Of a stretch of 60,615 nt of DNA, positions 26,051 through 31,808 are shown piece by piece. Both the position numbers and the translations under genes were made by a program. The notes under the pieces are model-generated. The model saw only the letters and a program-made list of their open reading frames with translations. It made no database searches and was not told where the DNA came from. The stretch's first letter is position 1; each line of letters starts with the position of its first letter. Source of the DNA: Alphaproteobacteria bacterium (GTDB lineage: Bacteria > Pseudomonadota > Alphaproteobacteria > GCA-2731375); the NCBI GenBank assembly GCA_030747035.1, contig JASLLM010000003.1:1-60615 (forward strand), in the 5' to 3' direction.

Positions 26051-27106
26051 CTATGCGTCGGCAAGCCCTTTGATGGCGTCGGAAGAAATCTGCAAGCCGC
26101 GCTCGACCACCGATGCCTCCCAGGCCGCATCGTCGCGGCAAAAGGCCGCACGGAAGTTCTTCTTGACCGTAACATTGCCGGGCGCTTCGCCCTGCCGCCA
26201 CAGAGCATGCTCGTCGCGCAACGCCGCCAGCACGCCGTCGAAGGGCAAGGTGCCGAATTCCAGGGTCAGGCAGATGACCCGCGCCGGTGCCAGGGCCTCC
26301 ATGGCGCCATTGCCGGTCTTGCCGTGATTGATCTTGGCCGCCGCCGCGGTGACGTCCTTGCCCCACCATTGCCGCGCCAGGGCAAAATCATCCGTCTTCG
26401 GCGTGTGATAGCACATTGGGCTGCCGTAGCCCGCCGGCCCCAGGCCGGTATGGATATCCACATAGGCCGCCAGCTTTACCGCCGGCAGCAGCCTGGGCAG
26501 AAATTCGCGCAGGGCCCGGTTCGACCAGACCGGCACCCGGCCGCCATAGAACATCCCCTCGGGATCATCGTACTGACCGCCGACGGCGCGCATGATATTC
26601 AAATGCCCCATTTCCGTGCTCAGGCGCTCCATCTCCCGGTCGGCATCGGCCCGTTCAGGCCCCGAAAGAGCATCAAGCGCCAGAACATGGGCGATCTTTG
26701 CGTAACCTTCATTGTGAGGATGTTCATCCTCGTGGTCGATGAAGTTTCGGTTCAGGTCCACGTTGATTTCATTGACCCGGCGCAGATGCGCGAAGCCGAA
26801 GGCGTTCAGGCCGTGCACCATGACGACCGCCATATTTTCGGACAACGGGACCTGCGCCATCAGCCAGGCGCATTGAATGGCGGAGCCCGCGAAGCCTTCC
26901 GCCCCGTGGGTGCCGGAAACCAGGATTAGGGCCCGTTCGGCATTCGCCGGGCCGAGGCGCAGGAATTCCGTGCTCAGGTCCAGCCCGCCCGGACCCGGCG
27001 CCGGATTTTTGGCCCGCAACAGTTCGCCGCCCGATGCCGCGGCCAGATCCAGGAAATAGCCCCGGCAGGCGGCATAGTCGGGCCGGAAATGTTCGCTGGC
27101 GCTCAA
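26051..27106 (-). CDS. DUF2817 M14-like metallopeptidase (second of tandem pair)
   Basis: 351 residues. Zinc-site motif GTHGAEGFAGSAIQ (H-x-x-E), NEINVDLNRNF, third ligand region YVDIHTGLGPAGYG, and TLEFGTLPFDGVLAALR carrying the probable general-base Glu. The fold is carboxypeptidase-like; substrates of this family are unknown. I chose the TTG at 27106, which overlaps the stop of the upstream paralogue by four bases (TTGA) and follows GGAAAG; the longer frame overlaps that gene by 73 bases. The tandem paralogue at 27103-28188 shares the same motif order, so this is a duplication with coupled translation. Confidence 0.85.
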   Translation of the reverse strand: MSASEHFRPDYAACRGYFLDLAAASGGELLRAKNPAPGPGGLDLSTEFLRLGPANAERALILVSGTHGAEGFAGSAIQCAWLMAQVPLSENMAVVMVHGLNAFGFAHLRRVNEINVDLNRNFIDHEDEHPHNEGYAKIAHVLALDALSGPERADADREMERLSTEMGHLNIMRAVGGQYDDPEGMFYGGRVPVWSNRALREFLPRLLPAVKLAAYVDIHTGLGPAGYGSPMCYHTPKTDDFALARQWWGKDVTAAAAKINHGKTGNGAMEALAPARVICLTLEFGTLPFDGVLAALRDEHALWRQGEAPGNVTVKKNFRAAFCRDDAAWEASVVERGLQISSDAIKGLADA

Positions 27107-28188
27107 CTTTCCGACAGGCCCTTCACGGTCTTGCGCGCGATATCCAGGCCCCGCTGCCAGACATCGTCGTTCCATTGGCTGTCCTCACCATAAAACGCGG
27201 CCCGGACCTGCCGCTTGATTTCCCGGCCCACCGGGGAAGCAACGTCGCCGTGCAAATACAGCCAGTTATCGGCGCGCAGGGCCTGCAACACCTCCTCTGG
27301 CGGCAGGGTGCCGAATTCAATGGCAATGGTGGTGCTTTCCGTATTCTCCAGCAGGGCATGATATCCGGTCTCGATGGTGCCATTGACCTTGGCCGAGACA
27401 CTGTCGCCCGAGCCGGGGATCCGCACCTCGTCGCCGTACCATGCCACCGTACGCAAATGCTCCGGACCGCCCGGCGCATCGACCGAGATCAACTCGCCAA
27501 AACCTCTTGGTCCTAGGCCGGTATGGAAATCGATCAACGCCACATGGCTACGGCCGCGCAAATGTTCCCGGGCCAGGCGTTCAATGGCCTGCCGCGACCA
27601 GGTTGGCGCCTGGCCGCCGAAGAACAAGCCGTCGGGATGTCCGTGCTGGCCGCCACTGACCGCCGCCTGAAACGCAAACATGCCGTGGGCATCGATGAAG
27701 GCCTCGATCGCCGCATCCGCCGCCTGCCGGGCCGGGCCATCCCAATCATCGGGCACCAGCCAGGGATGGACCTCGTCATAGGCGCTGTTTTCGGGTAACG
27801 GCGCGCTGAAATCGACAAAATTGCGGTTCAGGTCGACGTTGTCTTCGGTGACCCGCCGTTCGTGGGCGAAACCGTGCGGGTTGTGGGCATGCACGTGCAT
27901 CACCGCCATGTCCCCGGGCAACCCACCATGCAGTGCGTCTTCCAAGAATCCCACCTGGCAGCCGGAGCCGCAGAAACCCTCAACCCCATGGGTGGCCGAC
28001 GCGGTTACCAGGACCTTCGCCGCATCAGGCGGACCCAGATAAGCCAGATCCAGGGCCAGATCGCCGCCGTCGGGGCCCTTCAGGGGATGGGGATAGCTCG
28101 TCAGGTCCGCACCGGCAGCCTGGGCCGCGGCCAGGAATTTGGCCCTCGCCTCGCCATAGCTGGCGGAAAACCAATCATCGATTGCCAT
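27103..28188 (-). CDS. DUF2817 M14-like metallopeptidase (first of tandem pair)
   Basis: 361 residues with the same motif series as its neighbour: ATHGVEGFCGSGCQ (zinc H-x-x-E), TEDNVDLNRNFVDF, LIDFHTGLGPRGFGE and IEFGTLPPEEVLQALR. The start at 28188 follows GGGAGACGAC. It is cytoplasmic by sequence (no signal peptide). Overall similarity to the second copy is moderate, so the duplication is older than that of the luciferase-like pair. The upstream neighbour is an acyl-CoA dehydrogenase 79 bases away in the same direction. Confidence 0.88.
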   Translation of the reverse strand: MAIDDWFSASYGEARAKFLAAAQAAGADLTSYPHPLKGPDGGDLALDLAYLGPPDAAKVLVTASATHGVEGFCGSGCQVGFLEDALHGGLPGDMAVMHVHAHNPHGFAHERRVTEDNVDLNRNFVDFSAPLPENSAYDEVHPWLVPDDWDGPARQAADAAIEAFIDAHGMFAFQAAVSGGQHGHPDGLFFGGQAPTWSRQAIERLAREHLRGRSHVALIDFHTGLGPRGFGELISVDAPGGPEHLRTVAWYGDEVRIPGSGDSVSAKVNGTIETGYHALLENTESTTIAIEFGTLPPEEVLQALRADNWLYLHGDVASPVGREIKRQVRAAFYGEDSQWNDDVWQRGLDIARKTVKGLSES

Positions 28189-28267
28189 GTCGTCTCCCAT
28201 AGCCTCGAGAAAAGCAAAGGCGGAGCCGGATCGACCGGCCCCGCCCAACTATAATCACCACGGGCAT

Positions 28268-29476
28268 TTAATTCCAGCGGCGCAACTCCAACCGTCCGAT
28301 CTGTGCCCGATGCACCTCATCGGGACCATCAGCGAAACGCAAGGTGCGGGAATGGGCATAGGCATGGGCCAGATTGAAGACCTGGCTGACACCACCGCCG
28401 CCATGGACCTGCATGGCCACGTCGACCACACGGCAGGTCATGTTCGGCACCGCCACCTTGATCATGGCGATTTCCTTGCGCGCCTCCTTGTTGCCCACGG
28501 TATCCATCTTGTGGGCCGCGTACAGGACCAGCAGACGGGCCTGATCGATGGCGATCCGTGCTTCGGCGATCCGCTCGGTCGTGACCGACTGCTCGGAAAC
28601 CAGTTTGCCGAAGGCGAAACGGGATTTCGCCCGTTTGCACATATTCTCCAAGGCACGCTCGGCAACCCCGATCTGACGCATGCAGTGATGGATCCGTCCT
28701 GGCCCGAGGCGGCCCTGGGCGATCTCGAAACCGCGCCCCTCGCCCAGCAGGATATGATCGGCGGGCACGCGGACATTTTCGAACAGCACCTGGCCATGGC
28801 CATGCGGCGCATCGTCATAGCCGAAGACATGCAGCATCTTTTCCACCGTGATTCCCGGCGTGTTGCGCGGTACGACGATCATCGACTGCTGGCGGTAACG
28901 GTCGGCATTATCCGGATCCGTCTTGCCCATCAGGATCAGCACTTCGCAACGGGGATCACCGATGCCGGAAGTCCACCATTTGCGGCCGTTGATGACGTAT
29001 TCATCGCCCTCGCGCACGATGGCGGTTTCAATGTTGGTGGCATCGGACGAGGCCACGGCGGGCTCGGTCATGGCGAAGGCGGAACGGATCTTGCCGTCCA
29101 GCAGCAGCTTCAGCCAGCGTTCCTTGAGCTCGGCATTGGCATAGCGGGTGAAGACTTCCATGTTGCCCGTATCAGGTGCCGAGCAGTTGGTGGATTCAGC
29201 CGCGATGGGCGAACGGCCCATGATCTCGCACAGCGGGGAATAGTCGAGGTTGGACATCGGCTCCACCTCGTCACTCTCCGGCAGGAACAGGTTCCACAGG
29301 CCCTGTTCGCGGGCCTTGGCCTTCATCTCCTCCAAAACCGGGGGCACGCTCCACCGCTCCGCGCTCTGCTCGAGCTGTTCGTGGTATAGGTCCTCGTTCG
29401 GGTAGACCGTATCGTCCATGAATTTCAGCAGCCGCTCCTGCAAATCCTTTGAGCGGTCGGAAAATTCTGGGATCAT
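28268..29476 (-). CDS. Acyl-CoA dehydrogenase, ACAD10/11-like subfamily (paralogue)
   Basis: 402 residues, clearly paralogous to 20035-21240: [86 protein letters not shown] (Asp as probable base). FAD-dependent oxidation of an unidentified, possibly branched or long-chain, acyl-CoA in the cytoplasm. GGAAGGATAGGTAAGAG precedes the ATG. It is divergent from the selenoprotein gene, with about 160 bases between starts. Confidence 0.92.
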
Positions 29477-29639
29477 CTCTTACCTATCCTTCCTTTCGGA
29501 CACAGCCGTGCCCGGATCTTCGTCTATGGTTTATTGCATCCCGACAATGTAGCGCCACGCGCCGCCGGAGTCTCCTATGAGTTTACGGGGCAGTATGTGT
29601 TATGATGCCGCAGCAATGATTTTCCGAAAGGATGCCAGA

Positions 29640-30605
29640 ATGGCGAAACGATCAGCAGAGGACGAAGCCCTGGGCTTTGCTCCGCCGCACGACCTGCCGG
29701 TGCCCTATATGCAGCGATTGCGGGATTATTACCTGGCCCTGGGCTACGGCAACCCCTACCGCTGGGCCCAGTATACGGACGTTCCCTTCACGCCGCTGGA
29801 CAAGCCGTTGCGCGAGACCAAGGTTGGCCTGGTAGTCACCTGCGCCCCCTATCAGCCGGATCGGGGCGATCAGGGCCCGGGCGCGGCGTACAATGCGTCG
29901 GCCAAGTTCTATCAGGTCTATTCCGATAGTATCGAGAACGAACCGGACGTGCGGATTTCCCATCTTGGCTATGACCGGAAATACACCACCGCCGCCGATA
30001 TCAATACCTACTTCCCCCTGGCGCAATTGAAGCAGGCCGCCAACGAGGGCCGCATCGGCGGTCTGGCGGGGCGCTTCCACGGCACCCCGACCAACCGCAG
30101 CCAGGTCACCACGGTGGAGCAGGATTGTCCGGAGGTTCTCCGCCGTCTACGGGAGGATGGCGCCGAAGCGGCGGTCATTGTCGCGGCTTGACCGGTGTGC
30201 CATCAGACCGTGAGTCTGACCGCACGTTACCTCGAAGCCAACGGCATCCCCACTGTCATCATGGGCTGTGCCAAGGATATCGTTGAACAATGCGGCGTGC
30301 CGCGTTTCCTGTTCAGCGACTTCCCCCTGGGCAATGCGGGCGGCAAGCCCGGCGACACGGATTCGCAAGCCCAAACCATGGCCCTGGCCCTGGATCTGCT
30401 GGAAAGCGCCGTCGGCCCCCGCACCACCCTGCAATCACCGCAGCGCTGGAACGAGGACGGCGAGTGGAAGCTCGATTTCCAGAATGTCGAGCGGATACCG
30501 GCGGAGGAAATTGCCCGCCGCCGGGCCGAGTTCGACGAGGTCAAGCGCATCGCCAAGCAGCGCCGCGACGATGCGGCGGAGCCACAGACCGACGCAGCGG
30601 AGTAG
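29640..30605 (+). CDS. Selenoprotein of the glycine/sarcosine/betaine reductase B (GrdB-like) family, read through UGA
   Basis: One frame of 321 codons interrupted only by TGA at 30189-30191. Start MAKRSAED after AAAGGATGCCAGA. The upstream half (VGLVVTCAPYQPD..., HLGYDRKYT) and the downstream half (CHQTVSLTARYLEANGIPTV, FLFSDFPLGNAGGKPGD) together make one GrdB-type protein. The UGA gives VAA-U-PVCHQT, i.e. the U-x-x-C redox motif of this family. A SECIS-like hairpin begins two bases after the UGA (30194-30231). The downstream part has no plausible start or ribosome site of its own. In clostridia GrdB acts with glycine reductase; here GrdA/GrdC are absent, so the substrate is unknown. A nonsense mutation is the alternative, but the position in the active site argues strongly for Sec. 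Confidence 0.85.
30189..30191 (+). other. In-frame UGA predicted to encode selenocysteine
   Basis: The flanking frame stays open for 549 bases upstream and 414 downstream. The codon aligns with the catalytic Sec/Cys of the U-x-x-C motif. The next stop is TAG at 30603-30605. Confidence 0.85.
30194..30231 (+). promoter_or_regulatory. Bacterial SECIS-like hairpin
   Basis: Folding by eye: GGU-GUGC-CA-UCAGAC-[CGUGA]-GUCUGA-CC-GCAC-GUU-ACC. The upper 6-bp stem closes a 5-base loop containing GU, as in SelB-recognised elements; the lower 4- and 3-bp helices are separated by a small internal loop and a GUU bulge. The loop GU lies about 19 bases after the UGA, within the usual bacterial range. The element is inside the coding sequence, as is normal for bacteria. 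Confidence 0.65.
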
Positions 30606-30614
30606 AGCCGTATC

Positions 30615-31808
30615 ATGAGCAGACCGTTCGAGGGCGTCCGCGTCCTGGATTTCACCCAGGTTTTCGCGGGGCCCTTCGGCACCTATCAACTGGCGGTGCT
30701 GGGCGCCGACGTGATCAAGGTGGAGCGGCCCGGCGGCGAGGAAATGCGCAACGGCCCCCTATCCAAGGAATGGAGCGACCGGGGCATGGCGCCGGGCTGG
30801 ATCTCCATCAACGCCAACAAGCGCAACATTGCCCTGGATATGAAGGATCCGAAGGCGGTGGAGATCGTCAAGCGCCTGGTCAAGACCGTTGACGTGGTGA
30901 CGGAGAATTTCCGCCCAGGCGTCATGGACCGCCTTGGCATCGGTTACGAAGCCCTGTCGGCGATCAATCCCGGCCTGGTCTATTGCGCGGTCTCGGGCTT
31001 CGGCCAGAACGGCCCGGAACGCAACACGCCCTCGTACGACGGACGGATTCAGGCGGTCTCGGGCATCATGTCCATAACCGGCCATGAGGGCACGGGGCCG
31101 ACACGGGCGGGTTTCGCGGTCTGCGACGCCATCGGCGGTATGACCTCCGCCTTCGCCATCGCCTCCGCCCTGTTTCAGCGCAGCCAAACGGGCAAGGGCC
31201 AATGCATCGATGTGGCGATGCTGGATGCCACTCTGGCCTTCCTCTCGCCCTTGGTCAGTGAGCACACCACCACGGGGCATGTGCATGGCCAATACGGCAA
31301 TCAAGCGATCAGCCGCCGCCCCACCGCCAATCTGTTCAAGGTGGGCAAGGACAATTTGTTGCTGGCGGTGAATACGGAGAAGCAGTTCCAGGCCCTGATG
31401 CATGCCATCGGCCAGCCGGAATTGCTCGACGATCCCCGGTTCGCCGATTGGCACGGCCGGACGGAACACGAACCGGCCTTGCGGCAGATCATCGAAGACG
31501 CCTTCGCGTCCGACGATATCGCCACCTGGGAGGCCCGTTTGGCCGAGGCGGGCGCTCCGGCCTCTCAGGTACGGAATATCGCCGAGGCCGTCGCGCACCC
31601 GCAATTGCAGCACCGTGACGTCATGCAAAGCGTGGAGAGCCCCTTCGGCACCTTGAACCTGGTCGCCAACGGTTTCCGCCTGGCCCATGGCGGCGCCTCC
31701 ATCGACCGCGCGCCGGTGGCGCCCGGCGCCGACGCCGAGGAAATTCTGGCTGAAGCCGGTTACGACAGCGGTGAGATCGAGGCTTTTCGAGCCGAAGGCG
31801 TGATTTAA
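30615..31808 (+). CDS. CaiB/BaiF family class III CoA-transferase
   Basis: 397 residues. Family features: VRVLDFTQVFAGPFGTYQLAVLGADVIKVERPGG at the N-terminus, NKRNIALDMKDPKA, VDVVTENFRPGVMDRLGIGY, AVSGFGQNGPERNTPSYDG, GKGQCIDVAMLDATLAFL, and ASQVRNIAEAVAHPQ. These enzymes move CoA between carboxylic acids through an aspartyl-CoA intermediate. It starts 9 bases after the selenoprotein stop in the same direction, so the two are probably one operon and may act on the same pathway. A convergent haemerythrin gene ends four bases away. Confidence 0.92.
   Translation: MSRPFEGVRVLDFTQVFAGPFGTYQLAVLGADVIKVERPGGEEMRNGPLSKEWSDRGMAPGWISINANKRNIALDMKDPKAVEIVKRLVKTVDVVTENFRPGVMDRLGIGYEALSAINPGLVYCAVSGFGQNGPERNTPSYDGRIQAVSGIMSITGHEGTGPTRAGFAVCDAIGGMTSAFAIASALFQRSQTGKGQCIDVAMLDATLAFLSPLVSEHTTTGHVHGQYGNQAISRRPTANLFKVGKDNLLLAVNTEKQFQALMHAIGQPELLDDPRFADWHGRTEHEPALRQIIEDAFASDDIATWEARLAEAGAPASQVRNIAEAVAHPQLQHRDVMQSVESPFGTLNLVANGFRLAHGGASIDRAPVAPGADAEEILAEAGYDSGEIEAFRAEGVI

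Follow-up and report, generated by a model that had tools for sequence, protein, structure and literature searches.

The closest described relatives of the gene considered here are the Sec-containing reductase proteins PrdB and GrdB. Among the partner subunits of these enzymes, PrdA provides a pyruvoyl group. Glycine reduction is believed to involve a carbonyl group that holds the amine during selenolate attack on the carbon, and the same selenolate attack has been proposed for a GrdB-like protein acting on fluoroacetate, where no such hold is possible (PMC10838667). That protein, FarB, is the fluoroacetate reductase of Cloacibacillus, a GrdB-like selenoprotein with a proposed carboxylate attack and a non-amine leaving group, and the Cloacibacillus genome contains eight copies of grdB (PMC10838667). 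The motif of GrdB has been named as UxxCxxC (PMC13188914). Proteins with the shorter UxxC motif were classed as PrdB in two marine surveys, with 42 selenoproteins and 1 Cys homologue from the Sargasso Sea (PMC1088965) and 235 selenoproteins and 110 Cys homologues from the GOS survey (PMC2398784). In a survey of more than 5200 organisms, 110 had proline reductase selenoproteins, 131 in all, and anaerobes made up 78.3% of the selenoprotein-rich species (PMC5029168).

Catalogues have listed marine UxxC "PrdB" selenoproteins since 2005, so the selenoprotein analysed here is as such no discovery. Its expanded, apparently partnerless and CoA-transferase-linked form looks like a variant of the PrdB-type selenoproteins. 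By their description, the surveyed proteins are similar in family, UxxC motif and marine origin, and differ in being metagenome reads presented there with no gene context (PMC1088965, PMC2398784). FarB is similar as a GrdB-like selenoprotein with many copies per genome, but it comes from an anaerobic member of the Synergistota, has a GrdE-like subunit as its partner and, according to the proposal, passes its product on to GrdA and GrdC; its operon, as far as that source describes it, has no CoA-transferase (PMC10838667).

A PrdB-like gene interrupted by UGA

The window, meaning the whole stretch of DNA analysed, comprises 60,615 nucleotides from an alphaproteobacterial genome. The features that matter here are these:

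28268..29476, - strand: divergent acyl-CoA dehydrogenase (Pfam); functional link unsure
29628..29632, + strand: likely ribosome-binding site AAGGA, 7 nt upstream of the ATG, read by eye
29640..30605, + strand: PrdB-like selenoprotein gene, 321 residues, Sec184 (UPVC), from the translation and matches to Pfam GRDB and NCBIfam TIGR04483
30189..30191, + strand: UGA codon, almost certainly read as selenocysteine; TGA (36) or TGC/TGT (44) in the best 80 of at least 557 relatives
30203..30219, + strand: conserved SECIS upper stem-loop, from comparative stem counts and folds
30615..31808, + strand: family III CoA-transferase, 397 aa, start 9 nt past the selenoprotein stop (PF02515, 380.6 bits)

Translation confirms the statement of the preliminary description that the frame 29640-30605 is open for 321 codons save for a single TGA, which falls within the sequence UPVCHQT; the frame terminates at a TAG (30603-30605). 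That description also assigned the product to a GrdB-like family of UxxC selenoproteins. The UxxC motif is there and the Pfam GRDB profile (PF07355) is matched at 33.5 bits against a gathering cut-off of 22, over profile positions 209-345 of 347 only, but the nearest characterised family is PrdB rather than GrdB. The top NCBIfam match is TIGR04483 (PrdB), which covers residues 50-255 at 92.5 bits, far under its curated cut-off of 300, and its model has 238 positions as against 321 residues here. The GrdB-type NCBIfam families score 39-47 bits, all under their cut-offs, with GrdB proper (TIGR01917) at 39 bits against 602.2. The protein shares with PrdB a Sec-containing UxxC motif and its best NCBIfam match, and with GrdB membership of a Sec-containing family at the Pfam gathering score, while it departs from the UxxCxxC of GrdB (PMC13188914) in having T190 at the third position.

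In an alignment of 44 homologues (the window protein and 43 of the best 80 of at least 557 relatives from named genomes), 57 columns are invariant, and most of these lie away from the UxxC motif. A predicted model places the Sec-Pro-Val-Cys pair immediately before a helix in an alpha/beta fold; a fold search gave no informative match.

Decoding of the UGA and the downstream hairpin

On comparative sequence evidence, SelB and tRNA-Sec almost certainly insert selenocysteine at the UGA at 30189 under the direction of the downstream hairpin. A scan of named genomes confirmed at least 557 relatives, and the best 80 were kept for counts of codons and neighbours. As the preliminary description had anticipated for aligned homologues, the codon at the site is TGA or Cys in every one of these 80 (TGA 36, TGC 35, TGT 9, other 0), an outcome favoured by one of the two scan patterns, which contains the motif, while the other pattern lacks it. 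When the window's own genome and 60 relatives were searched, 17 of the 61 genomes gave matches, in 99 stretches; 97 of these contain exactly one TGA, and the remaining two are fragments that lie beyond residue 184. A sequencing error at 30189, a concern raised at the outset, is very unlikely, since the same aligned TGA recurs in orthologues from ten other species of the genus.

The preliminary description had also proposed a two-step hairpin with a GU-containing apical loop about 19 nt from the UGA. The loop (CGUGA, 30209-30213) lies 17 nt after the UGA, close to that figure, and the upper step holds: CAGAC at 30204-30208 pairs with GUCUG at 30214-30218, with an outer pair, 30203-30219, at the wobble base of a His codon. 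The lower step is absent from the consensus fold of 71 distinct 44-nt TGA copies, which retains the upper stem alone. When identical 51-nt stretches are counted once, 80 of the 81 TGA copies keep the 5-bp stem unbroken, versus 1 of the 42 Cys copies; the former set is what remains of 87 distinct TGA stretches after removal of 3 frames due to chance and 3 distant copies (one with UPNCT, two with UPLCT), and the latter derives from 44 Cys copies. Codons +7 and +8 read GTG followed by AGT, TGT or GGT in 77/81 TGA copies and 0/42 Cys copies, and in 3 TGA copies both sides of the stem have changed, a compensatory replacement of G-C by A-U. The wobble base of the His codon covaries in the TGA copies with the first base of codon +10 (C/G 41, C/A 7, T/A 33, T/G 0), with a Fisher value of 3e-16 that is not a strict probability because the rows are related to each other; the corresponding value for the Cys copies, 0.12, is not significant.

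The folding energy of the single window copy is modest evidence. The sequence after the UGA folds at -15.4 kcal/mol (z -2.37), and 2 of 200 dinucleotide shuffles are as stable, but this energy is not rare against synonymous codons: 383 of 5000 synonymous-codon versions are as stable, and 125 of 5000 form the six-pair upper stem. Five TGA-interrupted frames in the window resemble coding sequence in composition and stay open for at least 70 codons on either side; the frame at 30189 is the only one of them with UxxC at its TGA, and it has the lowest downstream folding energy (-6.0 to -11.5 for the other four). What decides for a SECIS element is the conservation of the stem across copies.

The preliminary description had pointed to selA, selB, selD and the tRNA-Sec gene as genes to seek, and all four are present in the window's own genome (4.3 Mb in 351 contigs, 84.68% complete). 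SelA and SelB are matched, the frame of selD itself holds one TGA, and the tRNA-Sec scores 66 bits against Rfam, with agreement from ARAGORN (C315:12389-12480). The tRNA-Sec gene and selA/selB lie on different contigs (C315 and C295), and this differs from some Alphaproteobacteria in which tRNA-Sec is reported to be nested in selB (PMC8124441). A further stretch (L002, C281:75-160) scores 49.6 bits against the Rfam tRNA-Sec gathering cut-off of 47, and ARAGORN calls it tRNA-Ser. A comparison of genomes carrying either form sampled 50 of the 71 loci L095-L165 (24 of 27 TGA, 26 of 44 Cys), and L096 was dropped to leave 23 and 26. A selA match over the cut-off was found in 20 of the 23 genomes with TGA copies versus 14 of the 26 with Cys copies; the three TGA genomes that fell short comprise one whose match is truncated by the end of a contig and two that gave no match.

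Neighbours, paralogues and host

The gene immediately downstream encodes a CoA-transferase, and in 63 of the best 80 of the at least 557 relatives tblastn located a family III CoA-transferase on the same strand, no more than 185 nt past the match end, at 31 of 36 Sec loci and 32 of 44 Cys loci. Fifty-nine of the 63 are 56-91% identical to that of the window, and 4 are 30-34% identical. The other 17 of the 80 lack an adjacent CoA-transferase, one of them having just 287 nt downstream. The own genome has 54 CoA_transf_3 matches, so that adjacency in one genome is weak evidence, and only its conservation across lineages is strong. The outer genes in the sampled loci are of unrelated kinds, and the selenoprotein and CoA-transferase pair therefore looks like the conserved unit. 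The CoA-transferases tested against named families exceeded no cut-off, and so no substrate is indicated. In the literature searched, we recognised no report of a link between a PrdB-like selenoprotein and a CoA-transferase.

The acyl-CoA dehydrogenase neighbour recurs in 8 of the best 80 relatives, all of them among the nearest (L086-L093). Beside it in the window are two tandem DUF2817 genes on the - strand (26051-27175 and 27103-28248; 403.5 and 298.4 bits), and relatives of one of these were found by tblastn in 7 of the same 80 loci. A CmcJ/NvfI-family oxidoreductase (296.2 bits against a cut-off of 80) comes after the pair in one relative (L103:10267-11109) and is a possible clue to the substrate.

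Each of eleven genomes of the genus contains 6 to 11 matching stretches, fragments counted. In the own genome there are five further PrdB-like copies with one in-frame TGA each (contigs C9, C45, C61, C101 and C292; loci L037, L040, L036, L038 and L039, respectively), which score 78-136 bits against TIGR04483; the C292 copy reads UPNCT and the C45 copy UPLCT, both in longer frames. Depending on the paralogue group, the neighbours are an AMP-binding acyl ligase, another CoA-transferase, an MFS transporter with an AraC regulator, or a luciferase-like monooxygenase, and some groups have none of the queried neighbour genes nearby. In four genomes of the genus, the window gene's orthologue has a second, more distant Sec copy 4-7 kb away (G007:C113, G002:C38, G009:C84, G010:C25); the window contig gave no second match of that kind.

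Relatives at E 1e-20 or better were found in 13 of 142 genomes drawn from the class, the own genome included. Among the matches listed, the named relatives ranked nearest belong to Rhodospirillaceae and to other alphaproteobacterial metagenome genomes, and named strains that carry relatives include Bradyrhizobium, Belnapia and Desertibaculum. The form in Desertibaculum subflavum contains Sec and is accompanied by the CoA-transferase, whereas that in Bradyrhizobium strains contains Cys. On a 128-row tree (84 Sec, 44 Cys), a quick tree with long-branch warnings, the Sec/Cys label changes at least 6 times, with two changes forced by well-supported branches. In one genome outside the genus, a Sec copy and a Cys copy occur together, both at 65% identity to the window protein. 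A Cys form at L166 (G133:C321), perhaps a decayed copy, carries a TAG in frame midway through the gene, at a position that is Tyr in relatives.

A full-length match to the COX1 family supports an oxygen-respiring host, in keeping with the apparently aerobic character suggested in the preliminary description. That description also held that the rest of a glycine reductase was missing. This agrees with the searches, in which PrdA (TIGR04480) gave no match in the own genome and neither PF09338 nor GrdA (PF04723) gave any in 15 genomes, ten of them of the genus; as none of the three models matched in any control genome either, the partner subunits are best described as likely absent. The CoA-transferase neighbour and the COX1-bearing host distinguish the locus from PrdB; the lack of a PrdA match, subject to the same limit on controls, would be a further difference from PrdB, and that of a GrdA match one from GrdB.

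Proposed function and its alternatives

The best explanation of the locus as a whole, to which we assign a probability of roughly 85%, is that it encodes a PrdB-like selenoprotein; we propose that this is a selenol-dependent reductive enzyme whose action would be coupled to the activation of a carboxylate by CoA. The UxxC motif, the homology and the position next to the CoA-transferase gene are observed, and from these we infer the mechanism as follows. The selenolate would attack or reduce a small substrate, a selenenyl-sulfide would then form with Cys187, and cellular thiols would reset the Sec184/Cys187 pair, a cycle that we consider somewhat probable. With similar confidence we place the selenoprotein and the CoA-transferase in one pathway, the latter presumably transferring CoA to or from the carboxylate group of the substrate or product. 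The most likely chemistry, itself rather doubtful, would be that of GrdB and PrdB, in which selenolate attack reductively removes a substituent from a carboxylate, here with no amine-holding partner subunit. If such a subunit is indeed lacking, a substrate that already has a good leaving group is the simplest fit, for example an acid of the betaine, sulfonium or halogenated type, and its activation by the CoA-transferase would come before or after the selenolate step.

A different function, which we consider unlikely, is that of a general thiol-disulfide redox protein whose UxxC reduces other proteins or peroxides, with the CoA-transferase as a bystander. UxxC is indeed common to several redox selenoprotein families (PMC1088965), and the 17 of 80 loci with no adjacent CoA-transferase would fit a bystander. 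However, the homology is to substrate-cleaving reductases, most of the 57 columns invariant in 44 homologues are away from the motif, and there are several diverged paralogues per genome whose differing neighbours suggest different substrates.

It is much less probable still that the protein is a true D-proline reductase subunit PrdB engaged in Stickland-type proline reduction, as might be supposed from the best NCBIfam match and from the survey papers that class marine UxxC relatives as PrdB (PMC1088965, PMC2398784); the score falls far below the family cut-off, PrdA and PF09338 are unmatched in the genomes searched (as in the controls), and both the CoA-transferase context and the COX1-family oxidase argue against it. 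Least probable of all is an ordinary stop, whether in a pseudogene or between two separate proteins that meet at the TGA. By itself, the part after the TGA does give a 136-aa ORF that starts with a GTG at 30195, and the hairpin energy of the window copy is unexceptional, but the restriction of the site to TGA or Cys, the preservation of the frame in the genus and of the stem in TGA copies only, and the full Sec machinery all speak for selenocysteine.

The suggestion in the preliminary description that the chemistry of the selenoprotein is new is taken here as a hypothesis. Carrying the preferred reading of a reductive, CoA-linked enzyme further, we propose tentatively that lone PrdB-like proteins, at 6-11 stretches per genome in one alphaproteobacterial genus, may constitute an unrecognised selenoenzyme class of oxygen-respiring bacteria, in which the selenolate would cleave or reduce CoA-linked or CoA-bound carboxylates with no pyruvoyl partner, and in which the paralogues would have different substrates and CoA-activating enzymes. 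PrdB-type proteins are among the more abundant selenoprotein families in the seawater surveys, and are named after an enzyme of anaerobic amino-acid fermentation (PMC1088965, PMC2398784). A form that is apparently partnerless, expanded and linked with a CoA-transferase in several lineages, and that exists in natural Sec and Cys versions, makes the true role of these proteins testable. With its likely aerobic host and its Sec and Cys versions, it would also be a system for asking why oxic waters keep selenium.
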